32,378 nt of DNA, taken from the NCBI GenBank assembly GCA_016868785.1, contig VGFS01000026.1, positions 1-32,378 on the forward strand, written 5' to 3'. The first letter of the stretch is position 1; every line of letters starts with the position of its first letter. The stretch comes from Bacteroidota bacterium. GTDB taxonomy: Bacteria; Bacteroidota; Bacteroidia; NS11-12g; UBA955. The translations under genes were made by a program, and so were the position numbers. Shown here one piece after another: positions 702-16,743 of this stretch. Under the pieces are notes generated by a model, which worked only from the letters and a program-made list of their open reading frames with translations, did no database searches and had not been told where the DNA came from.

Positions 702-3296
702 TTATTCTGCGCAAAGCAATGACGACTGTCCTACCACCTCATCGCCCAAATAGAACCTCAACCGGTACAATCCCGCGGCACCCTCAAATAGGAATCCATT
801 GCCGGAGAGCATCGCACGGTTGAACTGAAATACGGGTCGGCCAGAAGCGTCGGTGATTTCAAAGCGCGACCACATGACATCAGACTGAACCTGTATCCAC
901 TGTCCTTTCGAAACGGGGTTTGGGTACAAGGATAACTGATTGGCTTTTAATTGGATGGATTTCAACTCTCCCAGTACAATGTCTTGGTATGTCTGCGAGA
1001 AGCAACTATCGCCAAGCTGTGTGAGGTCGTGAAAAACCCGAATGGTTTGGTTGCTAAAGGCAGAGAGATTATGCGTTGGTTTGGTGACGGTGGAGACCCA
1101 TCCCGGTGCAACTTGAATGTACCACATGTGATTACCGGTGGTGTCTAAGGGTGTAAAGCTGTACAACGCACCTTGGTTGCTTACCGTGAAATTGGCATTG
1201 GGCTTGGGATTGATTTGAATGCGCGCCTTGGCTGAATTTGCCAAACAACCTTTGGCGGTGCTTCCCTGAACCCACAGCGTATCGCCATTCTTCACCTGCA
1301 CATTGGTTATCTCATCGAACGGGTTTTGTATTTGTTTGACTTTCTTACCATTTTGAACGACCCAAGCATATTTTACCGAGTTGGTATCGCAAAAATTTGA
1401 AAACCAAACGCTGCTTCCGCAAATTACAATGGGGGATAGGGTGTCCAAATTGTGTTTTATTTGGTTTGTCTGAATCGATTCAGCCACCCAACTCAAACTT
1501 TTCTGGGTGGTGCCACACACTATTTGCGCCGAATCCAATACCGCTACATTCACTTTGCCGTTCAACGCGGTGATATTAATTGGGAGTTTTGCGGTTTGTC
1601 CTTTGGCCACACCATTTATCCAGGTGTGATAACGCGCAGGCAAGTTGCCAATGTTCATGGTGGCCTGACTTCCTACACACAAGGGGGCGTTTGACCAAGC
1701 AAGAGAATAATCAATGGGTGTGCATGATTTGGTGGTGGCAGTAAATCGCCCAACCGGACTAATCCCACAGTCGTTGTTGATCGTGCATCGAACCCACAGC
1801 GAAACGGGTGATTTATCGGACCGGGTAGCCACAGACACCGAGGTGTCAATGCCATTGTTGCCCGATAATGTCCACGTTTTTCCGGAGTCTTTGCTGTAAC
1901 TGTAAGCCAATGCCAGTGGGTTGGCTTTCCAACGAAATACCACTTGGGTTAATTGCGAATCGATGCCCACGAGTTGGGGTGCAAGCGATGAATCAACCAC
2001 CGCGTAGCTGAGTGATACAGGTACGCTCACACAACCATTGATGCCCTTGATCCAAAATCGCTCTTTGGGGTTGCTGCTGCGGGCAGTCGTTTTGATGAGG
2101 GTATCGCCAGAAAAAGGTCCAGACGCACCAATTACAGAAACCGAATCGCCCTTAGACAAGACCGCTTTCCAGGTAACGATACTATTTGCGCAATACGCCG
2201 ATTTGGGCTGATACAAACTTACGTTGGCAATGGGTTTGGGGTTGACCAAAATTTTAATGGGGTCTGTAAGTGTAGAGCATCCTTCTACGCTTTTGGCTAA
2301 ATTGAAGTAAGAGCCTGTATCCTTCAAGAAGATGGTGGTTTTGGTGCTATTGTTGTGAATCCACTTTTGCTTGTACAATGTGGCGTTCAAGGCGGATACT
2401 GTCACTTTCAAAGAATCCCCTCCGCAAATGGTGCTGGTTCCCTTTGGGGTGGTGCTGGCCTTTGGCGGCGACGTATAGGTGATAATGTTGAGTGTAACGG
2501 TGTTTGATTTTCCGTAGGCGTTGGTGACAGAAAATAGAATGGTGTGTTTGCCGGCGGTGAGCGTAAGGGTTGGGCTTTGTGCCGTTGATAAGCGGGTATT
2601 GGCGCCGGTGGCGGGTTTTTCCTCCCACAAAAACGAAGAGGGTGAATTGGTGGCGCTGCCCTCGAACTTGGTGCCGTTGGTGCAGGAGACCGGGTCGGCA
2701 ACTTTCGCCGATGCAACGGGCAACAGGGTTGAGGGGGTTATGGTGAAGTCCTTTTTATAAATGTAATCGCCATTGGTGCTGCCGTTGCTGTTGGTTGAAT
2801 TCAGGTTAATAAAGAATTTCACCTTGCCAACATTGGTTGCAGGGGCTTTCCATTTGAAGGTCCAAGCGGTGCTGTCGGTGCCCACATTCGATGATCCTGT
2901 GGTTGTCTGTCCGATGTAATACCTTGTTTTTCCACCGATGGAAGTGGAGCTGGTACTGGTTCTGCTGTCGGCCGTTGAAAAAGTTCCAGCAGCGGCATTG
3001 GTGGTATCGAGGGCGGTTAACTGAAAGCCAAATTTTGAAATACTGGTTTCCGCGTAGGTGATTGTAATGGTATAGGTGGAATCGGGGAGGTAGCCGGTGC
3101 TGGGGATGTTGCTTTTCATGCGGATGCGATTCCATTGGGTTCCAGAGGATACGAGGCTGTACGATGCGTGACAGCTGGTGCAATTGCCTTCGGAGATGGC
3201 GCCAGTGTAGCCGGGATTAGAGCCGTTGGTGTAGGATATCACGTCGCGAATGAGGGCAACGCTGAGAATCAAGAACAAGTATTTGATGTATTTCAT
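702..3296 (-). CDS. choice-of-anchor V domain / Ig-like repeat protein with T9SS sorting domain
   Basis: An 864-aa secreted protein. I start it at the ATG at 3296 because this gives a normal signal peptide (MKYIKYLFLILSVALI); the open frame continues upstream but its residues look non-coding. Residues about 27-190 form a choice-of-anchor V (reeler-like) domain with the typical NCTSCHA motif just after the signal peptide and a FGFQLTALD strand. A PKD/Ig-like segment (PSSFLWEEK ... GKHTILFSVTNAYGKSNTVTL) follows at about 205-275. A long run of Ig-like segments with paired cysteines then leads to a T9SS type A tail (LSLYPNPVSKGQWIQVQSD ... AGLYRLRFYLGDEVV). The protein is probably anchored on or released from the cell surface; its ligand is unknown. 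It is divergent from the TolC gene. Confidence 0.82.
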   Translation of the reverse strand: MKYIKYLFLILSVALIRDVISYTNGSNPGYTGAISEGNCTSCHASYSLVSSGTQWNRIRMKSNIPSTGYLPDSTYTITITYAETSISKFGFQLTALDTTNAAAGTFSTADSRTSTSSTSIGGKTRYYIGQTTTGSSNVGTDSTAWTFKWKAPATNVGKVKFFINLNSTNSNGSTNGDYIYKKDFTITPSTLLPVASAKVADPVSCTNGTKFEGSATNSPSSFLWEEKPATGANTRLSTAQSPTLTLTAGKHTILFSVTNAYGKSNTVTLNIITYTSPPKASTTPKGTSTICGGDSLKVTVSALNATLYKQKWIHNNSTKTTIFLKDTGSYFNLAKSVEGCSTLTDPIKILVNPKPIANVSLYQPKSAYCANSIVTWKAVLSKGDSVSVIGASGPFSGDTLIKTTARSSNPKERFWIKGINGCVSVPVSLSYAVVDSSLAPQLVGIDSQLTQVVFRWKANPLALAYSYSKDSGKTWTLSGNNGIDTSVSVATRSDKSPVSLWVRCTINNDCGISPVGRFTATTKSCTPIDYSLAWSNAPLCVGSQATMNIGNLPARYHTWINGVAKGQTAKLPINITALNGKVNVAVLDSAQIVCGTTQKSLSWVAESIQTNQIKHNLDTLSPIVICGSSVWFSNFCDTNSVKYAWVVQNGKKVKQIQNPFDEITNVQVKNGDTLWVQGSTAKGCLANSAKARIQINPKPNANFTVSNQGALYSFTPLDTTGNHMWYIQVAPGWVSTVTKPTHNLSAFSNQTIRVFHDLTQLGDSCFSQTYQDIVLGELKSIQLKANQLSLYPNPVSKGQWIQVQSDVMWSRFEITDASGRPVFQFNRAMLSGNGFLFEGAAGLYRLRFYLGDEVVGQSSLLCAE

Positions 3297-3315
3297 GGGG
3301 CGATGGTGGTTAGAG

Positions 3316-3323
3316 CAAAAATA
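3316..3323 (-). promoter_or_regulatory. candidate -7 element of the 702-3296 gene
   Basis: On the minus strand this reads TATTTTTG, a match to the Bacteroidota -7 consensus TAnnTTTG. It lies 20 bases upstream of the ATG at 3296. No clear -33 TTTG was found at the expected distance. Confidence 0.4.
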
Positions 3324-3466
3324 GGCGGTTTTCGTTGCTCGGTTGGTTTGGATTTTGTTAAAGTTGAAAATGAAACAAATAAACGGGTGGATGGTTGTAT
3401 CGAAAGTCATGGTTATTTTAAATCTGATGGGATTGGTAGTTTGTCGTTCCGTTCCCGTGAATGGTC

Positions 3467-3489
3467 GATGCGGCCCGCAGGGCCGCATC
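3467..3489. repeat. perfect 10-bp inverted repeat, 3-base loop
   Basis: Arms GATGCGGCCC (3467-3476) and GGGCCGCATC (3480-3489), loop GCA. It ends 9 bases before the TATCTTTG element of the efflux operon, where a -33 contact would be expected. It could be an operator, a hairpin in a read-through transcript, or one of the structural hairpins also seen at 7801, 12593 and 16339. Confidence 0.8.
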
Positions 3490-3497
3490 AATATCAC

Positions 3498-6310: not shown

Positions 6311-6318
6311 TAGTTTTG
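6311..6318 (+). promoter_or_regulatory. -7 element (TAGTTTTG) of the B12 operon
   Basis: Matches TAnnTTTG and sits immediately before the first paired base of the cobalamin riboswitch at 6320, the geometry expected when the aptamer begins at the transcript 5' end. No strong -33 TTTG was seen. Confidence 0.5.
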
Positions 6319-6319
6319 C

Positions 6320-6516
6320 GGTGTTGCTAGGTTCGACGGTGGATGGCAAATCCATTTCGATGAAAAGGGAACTTCGGTGAAATACCGAGACTGTACCCGC
6401 AGCTGTAACTCCATGTCAATCAAACGGTTGATGTATTTTTTGGGCCTCTAATGCCACTGTTTAAAGACGGGAAGGCGCCCAAGAAGGAGAAGTCAGAAGA
6501 CCTGCCTGGAAACACC
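6320..6516 (+). ncRNA. cobalamin (B12) riboswitch
   Basis: The aptamer core is clear: AAAAGGGAACTTCGGTGAAA, then TACCGAGACTGTACCCGC and AGCTGTAA, then GCCACTG with TTAAAGACGGGAAGGC, and the B12 box AGTCAGAAGACCTGCC at 6491-6506. GGTGTT at 6320-6325 can close the P1 stem with AACACC at 6511-6516. The family senses adenosylcobalamin or related cobalamins and lowers expression of downstream uptake genes when the vitamin is plentiful. It precedes the BtuB-like receptor, which agrees with this role. Confidence 0.93.
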
Positions 6517-6553
6517 ATTGCACGCTTTCGGGAATAAAGGCGCGGCGAGGACA

Positions 6554-6572: not shown

Positions 6573-6600
6573 ACTCACCCATATTCCAGAATTCGTGTCC

Positions 6601-8553
6601 ATGAATGCCATGTTTGTCTTGGGTTGGATATCGATATTGGGCGCATTCAGCGCTTTAACGCCAGAGGGTGATACTTTGCAGCGCGCGGTGTTTTCTGATG
6701 AAGAGCCATACGATACCGTTTACATTCGTACACAGCGGATTGATTTTGCCACAGTTGGTCGAGTGGTGAGGAGTTTTTCCTCAGGCGACAACGACCAATT
6801 GCTCACGTCAGTGATGCAAGATGGTGGGGTGTTTTTCAAGCAATATGGGGTAACGGGTATCAGCACCATTTCTCGTAGGGGTGCGGATGCCAACCAGACA
6901 CAAATCAATTGGAATGGATTGCCGGTGAATAATCCCATGTTGGGGATGAGTGATTTTAATACGCTAATGAGTTGGGGCTGTGGGGAGATGTTTTTGGTTG
7001 AGGGGGGCAATTCTGCCGTGGTGGGCAGTGGCAGCATGGGTGGTACCTTGTTTATGCGCAATGGTTTGCATTTTCTGAATGCGGTTTCACCGAAGACCAC
7101 CGAGACACAATCTAAGTTATTGGGTACAGTAGGGTCGTTTGGAGAGCGAAATTTGGCTGTTGATGTACAGGTTAGCAGTCGCGACAAATATTTTTCTGTA
7201 AGTACTGCGAGTTATCATCACCGTAATGCCTTTGTATTTGAGGATTTAGGTTTGGAATTGCCTAGGCGAAAAATGGATAATGCCATGCGGTCGCAGCAGA
7301 TGATGCGCTTGGTGACGGGCATGAAAACGGGGAGAGGTCAATGGCGGGGGGTGTTGGAATGGGCTGGGATGTCGAGGCAATTGGGCTTAGCGATGGGTTC
7401 TTTGCAACCTTTGGGGAAGCAGTTGGATTTGAATTTGCGTGGTTTGATAGAGCATCAGGTATCGATGGGTAGCGGTTTTTCATTGTTGCAGCGGTTGGGC
7501 GGGGTGATGGATCAGATTGATTATTACAGTACGCCGGATGATACCATGGGGAGTTTGAGCAGGGGGAATACGTTGCATTATCAGAATGAATTGTATTACA
7601 GTAAACGGAGTTTGCGGGTATTGTTGGGGACCGATTTTCAATATCAATCGGCCCATACGGAATATTACTTGGGTTGGTCGAGAAGATCATTGCCCGCCTC
7701 TTTGCTGGGCGTTTATTGGTCGCACCGAAAATGGTCGGCCATGGGCAATGCGCGCTACGAATGGAACGAGCGCATGCCCACGGCCGGGATGTCGCTCCAG
7801 TTCCAGGCCAGCCGTAGGCTGGCCTGGAAATCCAATGTGCATACATCGTTCCGACGTCCAACCCTCAACGACCTTTTCTGGGTGAGTGGGGCAGCATTGT
7901 CCCCCCTGAAGTCGGAAAGAGGCTGGGGCTCAGAAATGGGCTGCCTCTACCAATCCAACACGAGCCATTGGCGCAAATGGCAACTTGTTCAAGTAAAAGC
8001 TGAACTAACTGCCTACTACCGCGAACTTGATTATCCCATCCTGTGGGTGCCCGCCGGAGCGGTGTGGCGTGCCACCAACCTGTCCGGCGGTGGCAAATAC
8101 GCCGGAGCCCAACTTTCGGTCGTGGCGCAATTTGCCCTGCTTCAATCTTCGTTCGTCCTGCAAGCCAACCTTGACCGCGTGCGAGCCAGAGTAAAACAAT
8201 TCCAAAATGCGCCCGAATACCAACAGATTTTCGTACCCCCATACAATGGTAACTTTTCGTTGAATTGGCACCGTCCCAAGCACCATCTGGCGGTAAACGG
8301 CCAGTGGGTAGGACTACGTTACATTCAGACCGATAATTTGGCCTATCTACCTCCATACACCCTATGGAATGCGCAATGGCGTCGGATCGCCCTGTTGAAT
8401 CAGAAAGGCATCGCCCTAGACTTAGGCCTGCAATGCCAAAATATTATGGGAACCCGCTACCAAAGTATGCCCGGAAGACCCATGCCCGGCCGATCCGTGC
8501 AGTTGACCCTTTGGATTAAACATCAAACCAACCCCAAAAAAATAAAATCATGA
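6601..8553 (+). CDS. btuB: TonB-dependent outer membrane receptor for cobalamin (BtuB-like)
   Basis: About 650 aa. The plug domain includes LLTSVMQDGGVFFKQYG, TISRRGADANQTQINWNG, PVNNPMLGMSDFNTL and a GSGSMGGTLFMRN end (about residues 55-155), followed by a beta-barrel. The upstream cobalamin riboswitch makes vitamin B12 the likely substrate. The ATG at 6601 is preferred; an in-frame GTG lies at 6595. The N terminus (MNAMFVLGWISILGAFS) is a weak signal peptide with no early basic residue. The stop overlaps the next start by 4 nt (ATGA), so the operon is translationally coupled. Base composition flips inside the gene: G-rich up to about 7680, C-rich after about 7980, with strong inverted repeats at 7742-7829. 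The C terminus carries about 12 residues beyond the usual final barrel strand. Confidence 0.88.
   Translation: MNAMFVLGWISILGAFSALTPEGDTLQRAVFSDEEPYDTVYIRTQRIDFATVGRVVRSFSSGDNDQLLTSVMQDGGVFFKQYGVTGISTISRRGADANQTQINWNGLPVNNPMLGMSDFNTLMSWGCGEMFLVEGGNSAVVGSGSMGGTLFMRNGLHFLNAVSPKTTETQSKLLGTVGSFGERNLAVDVQVSSRDKYFSVSTASYHHRNAFVFEDLGLELPRRKMDNAMRSQQMMRLVTGMKTGRGQWRGVLEWAGMSRQLGLAMGSLQPLGKQLDLNLRGLIEHQVSMGSGFSLLQRLGGVMDQIDYYSTPDDTMGSLSRGNTLHYQNELYYSKRSLRVLLGTDFQYQSAHTEYYLGWSRRSLPASLLGVYWSHRKWSAMGNARYEWNERMPTAGMSLQFQASRRLAWKSNVHTSFRRPTLNDLFWVSGAALSPLKSERGWGSEMGCLYQSNTSHWRKWQLVQVKAELTAYYRELDYPILWVPAGAVWRATNLSGGGKYAGAQLSVVAQFALLQSSFVLQANLDRVRARVKQFQNAPEYQQIFVPPYNGNFSLNWHRPKHHLAVNGQWVGLRYIQTDNLAYLPPYTLWNAQWRRIALLNQKGIALDLGLQCQNIMGTRYQSMPGRPMPGRSVQLTLWIKHQTNPKKIKS
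7742..7780. repeat. 11-bp inverted repeat with one bulged base, inside btuB
   Basis: TGGGC (7742-7746), a bulged A, and ATGCGC (7748-7753) pair with GCGCAT (7770-7775) and GCCCA (7776-7780). The loop is 16 bases. It precedes the perfect hairpin at 7801 by 20 bases. Confidence 0.65.
7801..7829. repeat. perfect 13-bp inverted repeat, 3-base loop, inside btuB
   Basis: Arms TTCCAGGCCAGCC (7801-7813) and GGCTGGCCTGGAA (7817-7829), loop GTA. It encodes part of a barrel strand (FQASRRLAWKS) that fits the normal receptor pattern, so it is not an obvious insertion. A perfect 13-bp arm with one fixed loop size is expected about 0.0005 times in a window this long under equal base use. Confidence 0.85.
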
Positions 8554-10729: not shown

Positions 10730-12229
10730 ATGAAGGGGAATTTTCTGAAGTTGAAGAAGGTAGACATCCTGCTGTTGCGGTCTTACGTGGGACCGTTTGC
10801 GGTGACGTTCTTCCTCAGCATGTTCCTGTTTTTGATGCAATTTCTGTGGAAATACATCGATGAGTTGGTGGGGAAGGGCATTTCAAACGACATTTTGGCC
10901 CAGCTGATATTTTATTCGCTGGCCGATTTGGTGCCGATGGCGATGCCGCTAACCATCATGGTTGCCGGACTGATGACCTTCGGGAATTTGAGTGAGAGTT
11001 TTGAGTTGGTGGCGATGAAGAGCAACGGAATTTCGCTGTTGCGGGCGCTGCGGCCCATCTTTATTTTGATGTGTTGCTTGGCGGTGATGAACTTCTTGTT
11101 TTTGAATTATGTGATTCCCAAAGCCAAGCTAGAGCAGGCGGGGTTGATGATTGATGTGCGACAGAAAAAGCCCACCTTCAATTTGGCGGAGGGCGTGTTT
11201 TATCACAACATTGAGGGGTTTGCCATTAGGGTTGGAAAGAAAGAAGCTGACAATCAAACCGTAAGGGATGTATTGATATATGAGTACAAAAAGGACGACA
11301 GCAAGCGCTTGAATGTGTTGCGGGCGGAGTGGGGAACCATGATCTTGAGTCCGGATCAAACGGTGTTGAATTTCACCTTGCACAATGGGGTGCGGTACGA
11401 GGAGATGACCAATGCGCCGGAATATCGCAAAACCCATCCTTTCAATCAGATGTATTTTGAGAAACAGCGGATGCAAATTGATTTGTCGAGCTTGGATTTT
11501 ACCTTCTCGGACAGGGATTTGATTGCCTCTGACTATCGTTTGCAAAACGTGTCGCAACTGTTAAAGGTCATCGATACGTTTCATTTGAAATGTGCTTCAT
11601 TGCGCGACGACAATTCCAAGTATTTGGGAAAATACATTCACGCACCAGGGGTGATGACACAGGATACGGGTTTGCAACAATATCGCAGGAATGCGGCGGT
11701 GTTTGAGGGTTTGAAGGAAACGCAGATTATCAAGAATTTTCCGCAGGCCCAGCGCGCCACCATTGTTGCAGCGGCGTTGAATCATGCCAGATCTGTGAAG
11801 GGCACAGAAGAGGGCTTGTTTACCAGTTTGGATTTTGAAGAGACGGATGTGGATTTATACCGGAGCGAATTGCACAAGAAGTTTGCTTTTTCAATTTTGG
11901 TGATTTTGTTGTTTTTGATTTCGGCGCCGTTGGGGGCGATCATTCGAAAAGGCGGGATTGGGATGCCACTGGTGATTTCGGTGATATTGTTTGTGTTGTT
12001 TTACGCGGTGAATTTGACGGGAGAGAAAATGGGGAAAGAGGGCATCGTGCCGGTTTGGATAGGGAGTTGGATGAGTTCGATGTTGTTGTTGCCGATTGGG
12101 TTGGTGATCACATACCGGGCGAGTATTGACAAGAGTTTTCAGGGCAGCAATCCGATGATGAATGCGTTCAAGGGGTGGAGGTCTCGGTGGTTGTTGAGGA
12201 GGAAAAAATCGGATAATTCTGCAACCTGA
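10730..12229 (+). CDS. LptF/LptG family permease (YjgP/YjgQ)
   Basis: 499 aa. The N terminus VDILLLRSYVGPFAVTFFLSMFLFLMQFLW is the first transmembrane helix of the YjgP/YjgQ family. PMAMPLTIMVAGLMTFGNLSESFELVAMKSNGISLLRALRP (about residues 70-115) is the conserved ABC coupling region. A periplasmic beta-jellyroll domain (about 130-370) and three C-terminal helices (FAFSILVILLFLISAPLGAIIRKGGIG onward) complete it. With LptB it would extract lipopolysaccharide from the inner membrane for transport to the cell surface. Family members in this phylum cannot safely be split into LptF and LptG by eye, so no symbol is given. The stop overlaps the next start by one base (TGATG), which couples it to the glycosyltransferase. 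The coding strand is strongly G-rich. Confidence 0.9.
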   Translation: MKGNFLKLKKVDILLLRSYVGPFAVTFFLSMFLFLMQFLWKYIDELVGKGISNDILAQLIFYSLADLVPMAMPLTIMVAGLMTFGNLSESFELVAMKSNGISLLRALRPIFILMCCLAVMNFLFLNYVIPKAKLEQAGLMIDVRQKKPTFNLAEGVFYHNIEGFAIRVGKKEADNQTVRDVLIYEYKKDDSKRLNVLRAEWGTMILSPDQTVLNFTLHNGVRYEEMTNAPEYRKTHPFNQMYFEKQRMQIDLSSLDFTFSDRDLIASDYRLQNVSQLLKVIDTFHLKCASLRDDNSKYLGKYIHAPGVMTQDTGLQQYRRNAAVFEGLKETQIIKNFPQAQRATIVAAALNHARSVKGTEEGLFTSLDFEETDVDLYRSELHKKFAFSILVILLFLISAPLGAIIRKGGIGMPLVISVILFVLFYAVNLTGEKMGKEGIVPVWIGSWMSSMLLLPIGLVITYRASIDKSFQGSNPMMNAFKGWRSRWLLRRKKSDNSAT

Positions 12230-13464
12230 TGAAATTGTTGGTGATTGGTAACCGGGTGCCTTGGCCTTTGCATGATGGTGGTGCGATTGCCACTCATGGG
12301 ATGCTGAGGTCGTTGTCAGAAAACGGGGCTGAGGTCCATTTTTTTACATTCAATACAAAAAAACACTTTGCGGAAAACGCCATCATTGAAAAGTATTTTG
12401 GGTTTTGTAAGGTGTATTTACATCCGTTGGATGCGGGGATAAAGGCGGGTAGGGCCTTTTGGAATTTGATTTTTGGTGGGAGTTACCACATGGAGCGATA
12501 CGATGATCCCAAGGCGGCGATTGCTTTGGGTGAATTGATGGAATCTGAGGGGTTTGATGCCATTTTGGTTGAGGGATTGTATTCGGTGCCAGTGTACCTG
12601 CGGGCGGTTTCCGCCCGCAGGTACAGTACGCCCGCGGCGTACCGCGCCCACAATTTGGAATACCAAATTTGGGCGCGCCTGGCTACCGCCACTGCCAACC
12701 CCTTAAAGAAATGGTACCTCAAACTCCAAGCTAACCGATTGCAACAATTCGAACACCGCGCTTGGTTGCAGTTCTCCGCCATCGTGCCCATCGTAAAAAC
12801 AGATGCCCTGGCCATAGAACAATATTTGACCGCCCAGCCGGCACTTTCGACTGTTCAGACCTCCCGCAAAATTCAATTGCATACCTATCAACCCGGTATC
12901 GCCATAGAAAGGCCCTTCGCTTTCGTACACAACCCCCTGTCGCTCTTTCACATCGGCTCCATGGAATGGCAAGCCAATGAACAGGGCGTCCTCTGGTTTC
13001 TACAAAAAGTATGGCCCCTGCTGCTGGTGAAATATCCCCAAGCACAGTTTCATTTGGCCGGGAAAGGTTTGTCGAAAACCGACCCCCGATTCTTCCAAAC
13101 CGGTATTGTCAACCATGGAGAAGTGCCCGATGCCGAAGATTATATGCACCAACACGGCATCATGGTCGTGCCCATTCAAGCGGGTTCTGGCATTCGCATC
13201 AAAACCCTGGAGGCCATGGCCCTCGGCGTTCCTGTAGTGTCTACCTCCGTGGGAGCCCAAGGAATGGCTGTTACCCATGCCCGTGAACTTATGCTCGCCG
13301 ATGAACCCGCCCAATTCGCCCAAGCCATCGCATATTTGATGGGAAATCCCGCAGTGGCTCAGCAATTAACCATAGAAGCCCGCACCTATGTGGAACAATA
13401 TCACAATCTCAAACGCAATACCGCTGATTTGCTTGGTTTTTTACGGGGCATCACCCACCTTTGA
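12229..13464 (+). CDS. GT4-family glycosyltransferase
   Basis: 411 aa. The N-terminal Rossmann domain starts MKLLVIGNRVPWPLHDGGAIAT and contains YRAHNLEYQIWARLA. The C-terminal domain has LFHIGSMEWQANEQGVLWFL, FHLAGKGL, HGEVPDAEDYMHQHGIMVVPIQAGSGIRIKTLEAMALGVPVVST (the E-x7-E-type nucleotide-sugar site) and a closing helix. This is a GT-B fold retaining glycosyltransferase of the GT4 class. Coupling to an LPS export permease suggests a role in cell-envelope glycan synthesis, but donor and acceptor are unknown. Three abutting hairpins lie at 12593-12677, and composition flips there from G-rich (about 64 G to 26 C in 12421-12600) to C-rich (about 35 G to 60 C in 12661-12840). The reading frame is intact throughout. 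It converges on the GNAT gene with a 6-bp gap. Confidence 0.88.
   Translation: MKLLVIGNRVPWPLHDGGAIATHGMLRSLSENGAEVHFFTFNTKKHFAENAIIEKYFGFCKVYLHPLDAGIKAGRAFWNLIFGGSYHMERYDDPKAAIALGELMESEGFDAILVEGLYSVPVYLRAVSARRYSTPAAYRAHNLEYQIWARLATATANPLKKWYLKLQANRLQQFEHRAWLQFSAIVPIVKTDALAIEQYLTAQPALSTVQTSRKIQLHTYQPGIAIERPFAFVHNPLSLFHIGSMEWQANEQGVLWFLQKVWPLLLVKYPQAQFHLAGKGLSKTDPRFFQTGIVNHGEVPDAEDYMHQHGIMVVPIQAGSGIRIKTLEAMALGVPVVSTSVGAQGMAVTHARELMLADEPAQFAQAIAYLMGNPAVAQQLTIEARTYVEQYHNLKRNTADLLGFLRGITHL
12593..12625. repeat. perfect 15-bp inverted repeat, 3-base loop (hairpin 1 of 3)
   Basis: Arms TGTACCTGCGGGCGG (12593-12607) and CCGCCCGCAGGTACA (12611-12625), loop TTT. It encodes VPVYLRAVSARRYST in the glycosyltransferase. 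It is one of the most stable predicted stems in the window. Confidence 0.9.
12626..12642. repeat. perfect 7-bp inverted repeat, 3-base loop (hairpin 2 of 3)
   Basis: Arms GTACGCC (12626-12632) and GGCGTAC (12636-12642), loop CGC. It begins at the base following hairpin 1. Confidence 0.8.
12643..12677. repeat. 15-bp inverted repeat with one bulge, tetraloop (hairpin 3 of 3)
   Basis: CGCGCCCA (12643-12650) pairs with TGGGCGCG (12670-12677) and AATTTGG (12652-12658) with CCAAATT (12663-12669). C12651 is bulged and the loop is AATA. It abuts hairpin 2 and encodes the conserved RAHNLEYQIWA motif, so it arose within conserved coding sequence. Confidence 0.85.
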
Positions 13465-13470
13465 GGTATG

Positions 13471-13908
13471 TTAAGCGGATGGGTAGGTCATTTTGAAGTG
13501 GGGGATGCCCGCCTCAAAAAAACGTTCGCCCTGGGCCACGAAACCGTGCTTTTCATAAAATCCTAGGGCATGTTCTTGTGCGTGAAGGTAGATTTGGCCG
13601 CGAGAGAAATTGAATTCGGGCGTAAGTGTATCCAAACAATGGTTGAGTAGGGCCGCGCCCGCACCGCTGCCGCGGTGCTCTTTCAGTACCGCAAAACGCT
13701 CCAGTTTGATGCCATAATCGGTGGTCCGAAACCGACAAGTGCCCACCGCCAATCCCTGGTTGGTGCACAAGAAATGCTGACTGCTGCCCTCGTGCTCATC
13801 GTATTCTTCGTCGGGCGGACAGTCCTGCTCAATCACAAAGACAATCCGGCGAATATCAAAAGCTTTGGCCATATCTTGGGGGTTTGTGATGGGGGTTACC
13901 TGTATCAT
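13471..13908 (-). CDS. GNAT family N-acetyltransferase
   Basis: 145 aa from the ATG at 13908, which gives MIQVTPITNPQDMAKAFDIRRIVFVIEQ. The acetyl-CoA binding region is LERFAVLKEHRGSGAGAALLNHCLDTL (about residues 75-100), containing the R-G-x-G-A/x-G loop, followed by IYLHAQEHALGFYEKHGFVAQGERFFEAGIPHFKMTYP. The layout resembles ElaA/YjcF-like acetyltransferases with the early FVIEQ and later AQ-x-x-A-x-x-F-Y-x-x-x-G-F motifs. The substrate is unknown. It is divergent from fba with a 48-bp gap holding overlapping promoter elements, and convergent with the glycosyltransferase. Confidence 0.85.
   Translation of the reverse strand: MIQVTPITNPQDMAKAFDIRRIVFVIEQDCPPDEEYDEHEGSSQHFLCTNQGLAVGTCRFRTTDYGIKLERFAVLKEHRGSGAGAALLNHCLDTLTPEFNFSRGQIYLHAQEHALGFYEKHGFVAQGERFFEAGIPHFKMTYPSA
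13661..13678. repeat. perfect 7-bp inverted repeat, 4-base loop, inside the GNAT gene
   Basis: GCACCGC (13661-13667) and GCGGTGC (13672-13678), loop TGCC. On the + strand G exceeds C to the left and C exceeds G to the right, as at the longer hairpins, though the effect is weaker here. Confidence 0.55.
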
Positions 13909-13920
13909 GGGAAAAAAGGT

Positions 13921-13939
13921 TAAATTTGCATCAAACTTA
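13921..13939. promoter_or_regulatory. face-to-face -7 elements of fba (+) and the GNAT gene (-)
   Basis: TAAATTTG at 13921-13928 faces fba. On the minus strand TAAGTTTG occupies 13939-13932 and faces the acetyltransferase gene. Both match TAnnTTTG. Expected start sites, 5-8 bases downstream of each, would lie within or next to the opposing element, so the two promoters should interfere with each other. Confidence 0.45.
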
Positions 13940-13956
13940 ATACAAAAAGATACGCA

Positions 13957-15015
13957 ATGGCTCAATCTCAAATTCAATCCTTGCTCGGTTCTCAAGCAGA
14001 ATTCTTGTTGAATCACAACTGTAAAACCATCGATCAGTCTATGATACATGCACCTGGTGCTGACTTCGTAGACCGCATTTTTGCACAATCAAACCGCAAC
14101 CCACAGGTGTTGAAGAGTTTGCAACAGTTGTACGGCAATGGTCGTATGGCAAACACCGGATATTTGAGCATTTTGCCCGTAGACCAAGGTATTGAGCACA
14201 GTGCAGGCGCCTCTTTCGCTCCAAACCCCATCTATTTCGATTCAGAAAACATCATCAAGTTGGCCATCGAAGGTGGTTGCAATGCCGTTGCTTCTACCTA
14301 TGGTGTGTTGGCAATGCATGCCCGCAAATACGCCCACAGAATTCCTTTCATCGTGAAAATCAACCACAATGAATTTTTGAGCTACCCCAACAAATTCGAC
14401 CAAATCATGTTCGGTTCTGTAGAGGATGCTTGGAACATGGGCGCTACCGCCGTAGGTGCTACCATCTATTTCGGAAGTCCCGAAAGCGGTCGCCAAATCA
14501 TCGAAGTAGCCCAGGCTTTCGAGCGTGCCCACGAGTTGGGAATGGCCACCATTTTGTGGTGCTACACCCGTAACAACGGTTTCAAAGTGGATGGTGTTGA
14601 TTACCATGCCAGTGCCGATTTGAGCGGACAAGCCAATCATTTGGGTGTGACCATCCAAGCCGATATCATCAAGCAAAAGTTGCCCGTGAACAATGGCGGT
14701 TACAATGCCACTAAACATGGCAAAACCCATCCAAAAGTATATTCTGAATTGTCGTCTGATCACCCCATCGACCTTACCCGTTACCAATTGGCCAATTGCT
14801 ACATGGGCAGAGCCGGTTTGATTAACTCAGGTGGAGAATCGAAAGGACAAGGCGATATGGAAGAAGCTGTATTCACAGCCGTTGTAAACAAACGTGCCGG
14901 TGGATCTGGTTTGATCTTGGGTCGCAAAGCATTCCAAAAACCCATGAATGAAGGTATCCAATTGTTGAATACTGTTCAAGATGTGTATTTGGATAGCAGC
15001 ATCACTTTGGCTTAA
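13957..15015 (+). CDS. fbaB: class I fructose-bisphosphate aldolase (DhnA/FbaB type)
   Basis: 352 aa of the DhnA-type class I aldolase family: [24 protein letters not shown], a [30 protein letters not shown] strand/helix pair, [20 protein letters not shown], and the late phosphate-binding segment [15 protein letters not shown] with [15 protein letters not shown]. The enzyme interconverts fructose 1,6-bisphosphate with dihydroxyacetone phosphate and glyceraldehyde 3-phosphate through a lysine Schiff base, with no metal. C-ending codons with few rare ones suggest high expression. accD follows after 9 bp, so glycolysis and fatty acid synthesis genes may share a transcript. Confidence 0.93.
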
Positions 15016-16317: not shown

Positions 16318-16743
16318 ATGCAATTATTGAAATTTGTCAATCAGTACAAGAAAACCATAGGTTTTCTTGTACTGATTTTTGTTTTATGTCTTTCTCCCTC
16401 ACTCGCAGTAAGCAAAAAACTGGGGTGGACAATCTCCTTCGGATTCGATAAATGGGTCCATGCAGGATTGTATTTTATCCTGTTTCTTATCTGGAGCACG
16501 GAATCTAAACAGTTCCACAAATCGGTCGTTTATTTTGTGTTGGCCGCTACAGTCGTTGGAGCAGGGATTGAATTTCTTCAACACATCTTACCGTTTCACC
16601 GTTCTGCGGAACTCGCAGATTTTTTTGCCGACATCTCTGGCGTCCTCTTTGGCTATTTCGTAGTTGCGCAAAACAGGTTGAAAAAGCAACCCATGCGTAA
16701 AAGGGGATTGTCACCATTCGGGGGACGTAACGATCGATTCTAG
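16318..16743 (+). CDS. VanZ-like membrane protein
   Basis: 141 aa with four likely membrane segments: about residues 14-28, 46-60, 70-86 and 105-120. The VanZ pattern is visible as GFDKWVHAGLYFILFLIW, VGAGIEFLQHILPFHRSAELADFFADISGVLFGYF. Function is poorly known; VanZ itself gives low-level teicoplanin resistance, and small VanZ-like proteins next to gcvH are common in this phylum from my general knowledge. A perfect 18-bp hairpin lies only 21 bases into the gene, and a terminator-like hairpin with seven T lies at 16603-16626. The C-terminal tail is basic. Confidence 0.85.
   Translation: MQLLKFVNQYKKTIGFLVLIFVLCLSPSLAVSKKLGWTISFGFDKWVHAGLYFILFLIWSTESKQFHKSVVYFVLAATVVGAGIEFLQHILPFHRSAELADFFADISGVLFGYFVVAQNRLKKQPMRKRGLSPFGGRNDRF
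16339..16377. repeat. perfect 18-bp inverted repeat, 3-base loop, in the start of the VanZ-like gene
   Basis: Arms AATCAGTACAAGAAAACC (16339-16356) and GGTTTTCTTGTACTGATT (16360-16377), loop ATA. It encodes NQYKKTIGFLVLI, the end of the cytoplasmic N terminus and the start of the first membrane helix. Under equal base use an 18-bp perfect arm with one loop size is expected about 5e-7 times in this window. Confidence 0.92.
16603..16626 (+). terminator. terminator-like hairpin inside the VanZ-like gene
   Basis: TCTGCG (16603-16608) pairs with CGCAGA (16614-16619), loop GAACT, followed directly by seven T (16620-16626). It would fit an intrinsic terminator but lies within codons for SAELADFF, so it may cause partial termination or be coincidental. 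Confidence 0.35.

Follow-up and report, generated by a model that had tools for sequence, protein, structure and literature searches.

What places three abutting hairpins inside an intact, translated gene, and what keeps them there? The question is raised by positions 12593-12677 of the 32,378-nt stretch of DNA analyzed here (the window), where a preliminary description had located an array of inverted repeats in a glycosyltransferase gene. We recovered all three hairpins with the positions, stems, and loops described (Table 1). The description had put the chance expectation of such a perfect 15-bp stem at about 3e-5 per window; for hairpins with a 15-bp stem and a 3-nt loop we obtained 3.06e-5. 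Its hand counts (64 G and 26 C at 12421-12600, 35 G and 60 C at 12661-12840) were exact, and the switch in composition is indeed locked to the array: the cumulative GC skew over 10731-14000 was maximal at 12607, where the left arm of hairpin 1 ends. The best explanation of the array appears to be a DNA-level coding palindrome able to form hairpins or a predicted cruciform whose base is four-way. Among the intragenic palindromes that make up a set in one uncultured Bacteroidota genus, it is the strongest.

Table 1. Coordinates of the array, its host gene and flanks, and two further hairpins in the window.
Feature	Coordinates	Strand	Description
Second coding palindrome, same kind	7801-7829	+	13-bp stem, c(GTA)g loop; lies within the TonB-receptor-like gene (6595-8553), close to a further drop in skew
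Left flank	11600-12583		G-rich on + strand; skew about +0.35 to +0.49 beside array
Host gene	12229-13464	+	group 1 glycosyltransferase, 411 aa, intact (ORF; Pfam)
Closing stem, left half	12584-12592	+	CGGTGCCAG; from fold
Hairpin 1	12593-12625	+	15 bp perfect, TTT loop; encodes VYLRAVSARRY
Hairpin 2	12626-12642	+	7 bp, CGC loop
Hairpin 3	12643-12677	+	15 bp, one bulged C (12651), AATA loop; encodes RAHNLEYQIWAR
Closing stem, right half	12679-12688	+	CTGGCTACCG; T12684 unpaired; from fold
Right flank	12689-13490		C-rich on + strand; skew about -0.2 to -0.3 beside array
Terminator-like hairpin	16339-16377	+	18 bp perfect, T-rich tail; start of VanZ-like gene, just after gcvH-like gene

Besides the three hairpins, the fold contains a closing stem, absent from the preliminary description; together they make a four-way junction in which nearly every base is paired. 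For 12580-12690 the energy of the RNA fold was -77.8 kcal/mol, compared to a mean of -42.1 kcal/mol for 200 dinucleotide shuffles (z = -9.8) and a mean of -34.8 with a minimum of -56.7 kcal/mol for 2000 synonymous-codon shuffles of the gene (z = -7.8). None of the 2000 reached the array energy, so that the array withstood a refutation test set in the preliminary description, and it is beyond chance. With DNA parameters both strands adopted the same fold, at about -53 kcal/mol. The array had no Rfam match up to E=1 and is not a known structured RNA family; no riboswitch identity was found for it, and a tRNA search of the window returned none.

The host gene matched the Pfam families Glyco_trans_1_4 (E=1.1e-23) and Glycos_transf_1 (4.3e-8) and was present in 57 of 58 relatives; the named ones are metagenome-assembled Bacteroidota and Flavobacteriales. 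The amino-acid identity of the glycosyltransferase was 81% in the congener G009, 80% in G002, 79% in G012, and 71% in G003. For residues 118-153, which the array encodes, the synonymous identity of matching codons in the same four was 34/35, 33/34, 26/31, and 23/26, compared to about 55-60% outside these residues, where most other blocks lay near 40-70%.

Alignment of close relatives showed that they retain the pairing of the array: 99.1% of the cells were paired, six pairs had changed on both sides versus one on one side only, and none of 500 shuffles equaled the alignment on any pairing measure. Hairpin 1 had both-side changes at five pairs and one-sided changes at none. In G003, the most distant of the four congeners, its arms differ (TGTATGTTGAGGCGG... 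against TGTACCTGCGGGCGG...) and are still fully paired. Hairpin 3 had one both-side change, from G-C to U-A, also in G003. The arms of hairpin 2 were invariant in five species, with TGC or AGT as the loop in relatives, and the seven pairs of the closing stem counted in five species were 100% paired, with one U-A to U-G change. Since the arms of hairpin 1 differ and yet pair fully in G003, and since nearly all cells are paired, it is the pairing that is maintained, while the protein sequence follows. Between the same anchors, deeper members of the genus (L008-L012, L014, L023, L026) have a longer, variable, and unrelated stretch of 165-345 nt without hairpins, compared to 108-111 nt in the array bearers.

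Strong covariation, synonymous conservation in the array, and a very stable fold would also be in line with an element selected at the RNA level (in ribosome pausing, mRNA stability, or mRNA processing) whose DNA symmetry is a by-product. Such an element, however, leaves unexplained why G-U or one-sided intermediates are almost absent, and the wider set of coding palindromes argues against it further.

We took a genome sample of 1.09 Mb (about 51% of the draft genome, as stretches). With gene calls from a simple scorer and hairpin classes defined after looking at the data, perfect 12-bp stems with loops of 3-5 occurred 19 times in coding sequence, compared to 0.5 expected from synonymous shuffles. 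With one mismatch there were 20 versus 6.4 expected, and with two mismatches 101 versus 103.6. Stem perfection is all-or-none: the excess is seen at zero or one mismatch and not at two, which again is not what selection on mRNA structure would lead one to expect. In E. coli we found one such coding hairpin in 250 kb.

DNA mini-hairpins are exceptionally stable when their loop is c(GNA)g. Among coding stems of at least 10 bp, 12 of 16 triloops were GNA or TNC (GNA on either strand), compared to 19% in short-stem controls. In 9 cases the mRNA strand carried the GNA loop and in 17 the template strand did, a distribution at odds with an mRNA element. We keep the role in mRNA processing or pausing that the preliminary description had proposed as a rival, though an unlikely one. 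On the other side, hairpin 1 of the array carries TTT and not GNA, and this counts against the DNA-level explanation that we prefer.

The palindrome in the TonB-receptor-like gene was absent from the preliminary description. Its 13-bp arms were identical in six species, and the N of GNA alone varied (GTA, GCA, GAA). Directly upstream of this gene, at 6312-6523, is a cobalamin riboswitch (90.1 bits). Close to a skew drop there is also a 10-bp hairpin with a c(GCA)g loop (3467-3489); it falls either within the minus-strand gene 702-3497 or immediately upstream of it, the true start of that gene being uncertain. Elsewhere in the genome, the gene G000:C7:33202-34671 (L073) has two separate coding palindromes (C7:34308-34330 and 34462-34484); its counterpart in G012, with 83% amino-acid identity, has neither of them and no skew flip. 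Coding palindromes were gained and lost between species and were absent in deeper genus members.

Joint change of the two arms is seen most clearly in the gene C6:20523-21800 and its orthologs (L217-L220). At the same position, four species have four different sets of arms, and the protein differs accordingly. The hairpins, of 15-17 bp, are each perfect or near-perfect, and both-side changes were found at 8 of 17 pairs with one-sided changes at none. Concerted change of this kind suggests templated copying between arms, and the template switching listed in the preliminary description is a good candidate for the origin of the array. For six hairpins compared with hairpin-less orthologs, the 3' arm was the less similar one in four, and the trend was opposite or neutral in two; the donor arm was not uniform across the six.

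Perfect inverted repeats with these properties have a precedent in the mitochondrial genes of Nematomorpha, where template switching was proposed (PMC6649704). As in Nematomorpha, the repeats lie in intact genes with both arms coding and no inserted element; the arms are kept identical, perfection is all-or-none, and palindromes are gained and lost between species. Judged by its sequence, the array itself combines perfect arms in an intact coding gene, concerted arm change, and gain and loss. Unlike the nematomorph repeats, those described here are on a bacterial chromosome and have arms of 8-18 bp, compared to up to 284 bp. The GNA loops and some strongly conserved arms are further differences, as may be the inward G skew and GC rise of the flanks. 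Quasi-palindrome template-switch mutations in E. coli (PMC7202029) and S. cerevisiae (PMC8604942) likewise arise by self-templated copying at a local scale, through which inverted repeats become perfect and several adjacent amino acids may be altered. Those, however, are single events, whereas the perfected arms here persist genus-wide with a kilobase-scale composition signature.

These precedents, the joint change of arms, and the more altered 3' arm in four of six hairpins would all suit a purely mutational product, in which template switching makes and homogenizes the arms, no function or break point exists, and the skew has another cause. The arms, however, evolve too slowly for this. For the six hairpins, the synonymous identity of the arms was 173/195 (89%) versus roughly 56% for the remainder of these genes, while unbiased conversion should not slow the arms. 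The frozen arms therefore look like an added constraint that neutral arm conversion alone leaves unexplained, and a selective reason is needed. Since several palindromes are conserved at synonymous sites, selection probably keeps them, the array most of all. We regard the purely mutational account as unlikely, somewhat more so than the RNA-level one; the flanks speak against both.

For the skew test we used coding hairpins with a stem of at least 10 bp, or of 8-9 bp with a GNA loop. GC skew was higher on the left than on the right at 32 of 32 coding hairpins in the sample, whatever the gene strand. The mean left-minus-right (L-R) difference was 0.234, compared to a null of -0.009 +/- 0.020 matched for distance from gene start, and the same direction was seen in G012 (7/7) and G014 (9/10). 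Raw skew drops at intergenic terminators too, E. coli included (16/19); therefore, the classes were separated at fourfold-degenerate sites, comparing terminators with 27 interior coding hairpins without T tracts. The interior hairpins had an inward gain of G to the left and right alike, whichever way the gene was oriented, while the intergenic terminators of the same genome had none. Pooled over the 27, the inward G gain was +0.10 to +0.12 and the GC gain about +0.09 within 300 bases, both fading over about 1-2 kb; the baseline-corrected inward bias was positive in 22 of 27. A two-sided flip of composition that is independent of gene orientation is not predicted by an RNA-level element.

We also observed that the flank signature follows the presence of the palindrome. 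In five of five ortholog groups, whose species are related and not independent events, palindrome bearers had a larger L-R than non-bearers: about 0.62 versus 0.18 for the glycosyltransferase, 0.45 versus -0.15 for TonB, 0.37 versus 0.03 for C7, 0.19 versus 0.04 for C6b, and -0.14 versus -0.24 for C6a. In the first of these groups L007 was counted as a bearer; it carries the array, and its automatic assignment to the class without is an artefact of a 2-nt loop. At hairpin C6:21652 the skew effect was weak. A purely mutational product does not account for this link.

The skew drop does resemble that at terminators, and a bidirectional or antisense terminator inside the gene, harmless to the translated sense mRNA, has to be weighed. 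Of the hairpins at most 400 nt from a gene start, 17 of 18 follow a co-directional gene, and those within about 100 nt of the called start often have a T tract; these gene-start hairpins are mostly terminators of the upstream gene. The 18-bp hairpin of Table 1, too, probably terminates the upstream gcvH-like gene rather than belonging to the palindrome set; among relatives, covariation is seen in its outer arms (CAGTACAAG/CTTGTACTG against AAGTACAAG/CTTGTACTT). The array and the TonB palindrome are of the interior class. Like an intrinsic terminator, the array is a G+C-rich hairpin; unlike one, it has no T-rich tract on either strand and lies within a translated gene. No terminator-like site was found on either strand of 12100-13600, and the TonB hairpin has no T tract on either side. 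Given also that same-genome terminators have no inward G bias and that the average coding strand has an excess of C rather than of G at fourfold sites, the bidirectional terminator of the preliminary description is not supported, and any intragenic terminator is improbable.

Composition could instead have come first, with a prior G-to-C switch raising the odds of chance quasi-palindromes on which the hairpins merely sit. Hairpin-less glycosyltransferase orthologs already have a mild drop (L-R 0.10-0.28), but hairpin-less TonB orthologs trend the opposite way on average, and we estimate the boost in chance pairing at about 1.7-fold per 10 bp versus a 38-fold excess. This order of events is very improbable. 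Simple cytosine deamination on 3' overhangs was a poor fit, for G rises and T does not. A replication terminus, with its single genome-scale skew switch, was rejected as well: the skew instead drops locally at many places and returns within about 1-2 kb. A search of the flanks for a Chi-like motif yielded general G-run enrichment only and no discrete motif.

Dispersed palindromic elements were also considered. REP/BIME and Rickettsia palindromic elements are likewise small palindromes scattered in a genome, the latter in frame inside genes; the palindromes here, unlike them, have no common sequence family and no insertion. Distant homologs align with the host gene without net insertion, which upholds the earlier view that the array is not an inserted element, and a search of its own genome returned the locus alone. 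A Rickettsia-type in-frame insertion was rejected on both counts, and REP/BIME because near-identical copies are lacking in the genome and the array is inside an intact gene.

Palindromes used in E. coli experiments are far longer than the stems here, and we know of no cleavage of 8-18 bp stems. Two E. coli reports describe palindrome-induced double-strand breaks cut by SbcCD (PMC3315005, PMC4125073). The likeness is in a hairpin as the proposed break point with two 3' ends facing it, and SbcCD-like genes occur in the clade. Adjacent SbcD-like and SbcC-like ORFs were seen in the palindrome bearers G002 (C153), G009 (C96), and G012 (C36); the SbcD-like match of the window genome (G000:C57:110-385) is at a contig end, and no clear match was found in G008 and G013. 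Loss of SbcCD as the cause of palindrome accumulation was not supported, since SbcCD-like matches exist in several bearers and are missing in some deeper members. G006 carries the TonB palindrome without a clear SbcD match; therefore, the presence of SbcCD does not track the palindromes.

Taken together, the observed structure, covariation, constraint, loop bias, and flank signature with its tie to the presence of the palindrome are most consistent with self-templated arm rewriting combined with palindromes acting as recurrent points of break or stall and repair, a reading to which we tentatively assign a probability of roughly 0.4. Template switching and a break or stall are what we infer from these observations, as would be any advantage that the cell gains. 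A polymerase would stall or fold back at a small quasi-palindrome and copy one arm from the other, a step with support in the data, to give a perfect hairpin and a locally altered protein; later rounds of templated copying would re-match the arms, so that they change together. The palindrome may then be a site where forks repeatedly stall or the hairpin is cleaved and where 3' ends arrive from both sides, and their resynthesis or recombination could leave inward G and raised GC in the flanks. A stronger form is unlikely: that the genus holds several dozen selected coding palindromes as fixed points of break or recombination initiation, a bacterial counterpart of meiotic hotspots, with the inward G-rich, GC-raised flanks as the long-term footprint of the break points.

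Since a perfect palindrome in a gene restricts the protein and makes the DNA less stable, such palindromes are normally rare. A bacterial lineage that amasses and conserves them, with jointly evolving arms and a composition signature to either side, would record sites of template switching or of the meeting of DNA ends, and genome sequence would by itself permit the study of self-templated mutation and repair. Moreover, covariation within coding sequence need not imply a functional RNA. If the break-point reading is true, the palindromes would be fixed recombination points in a bacterial chromosome.
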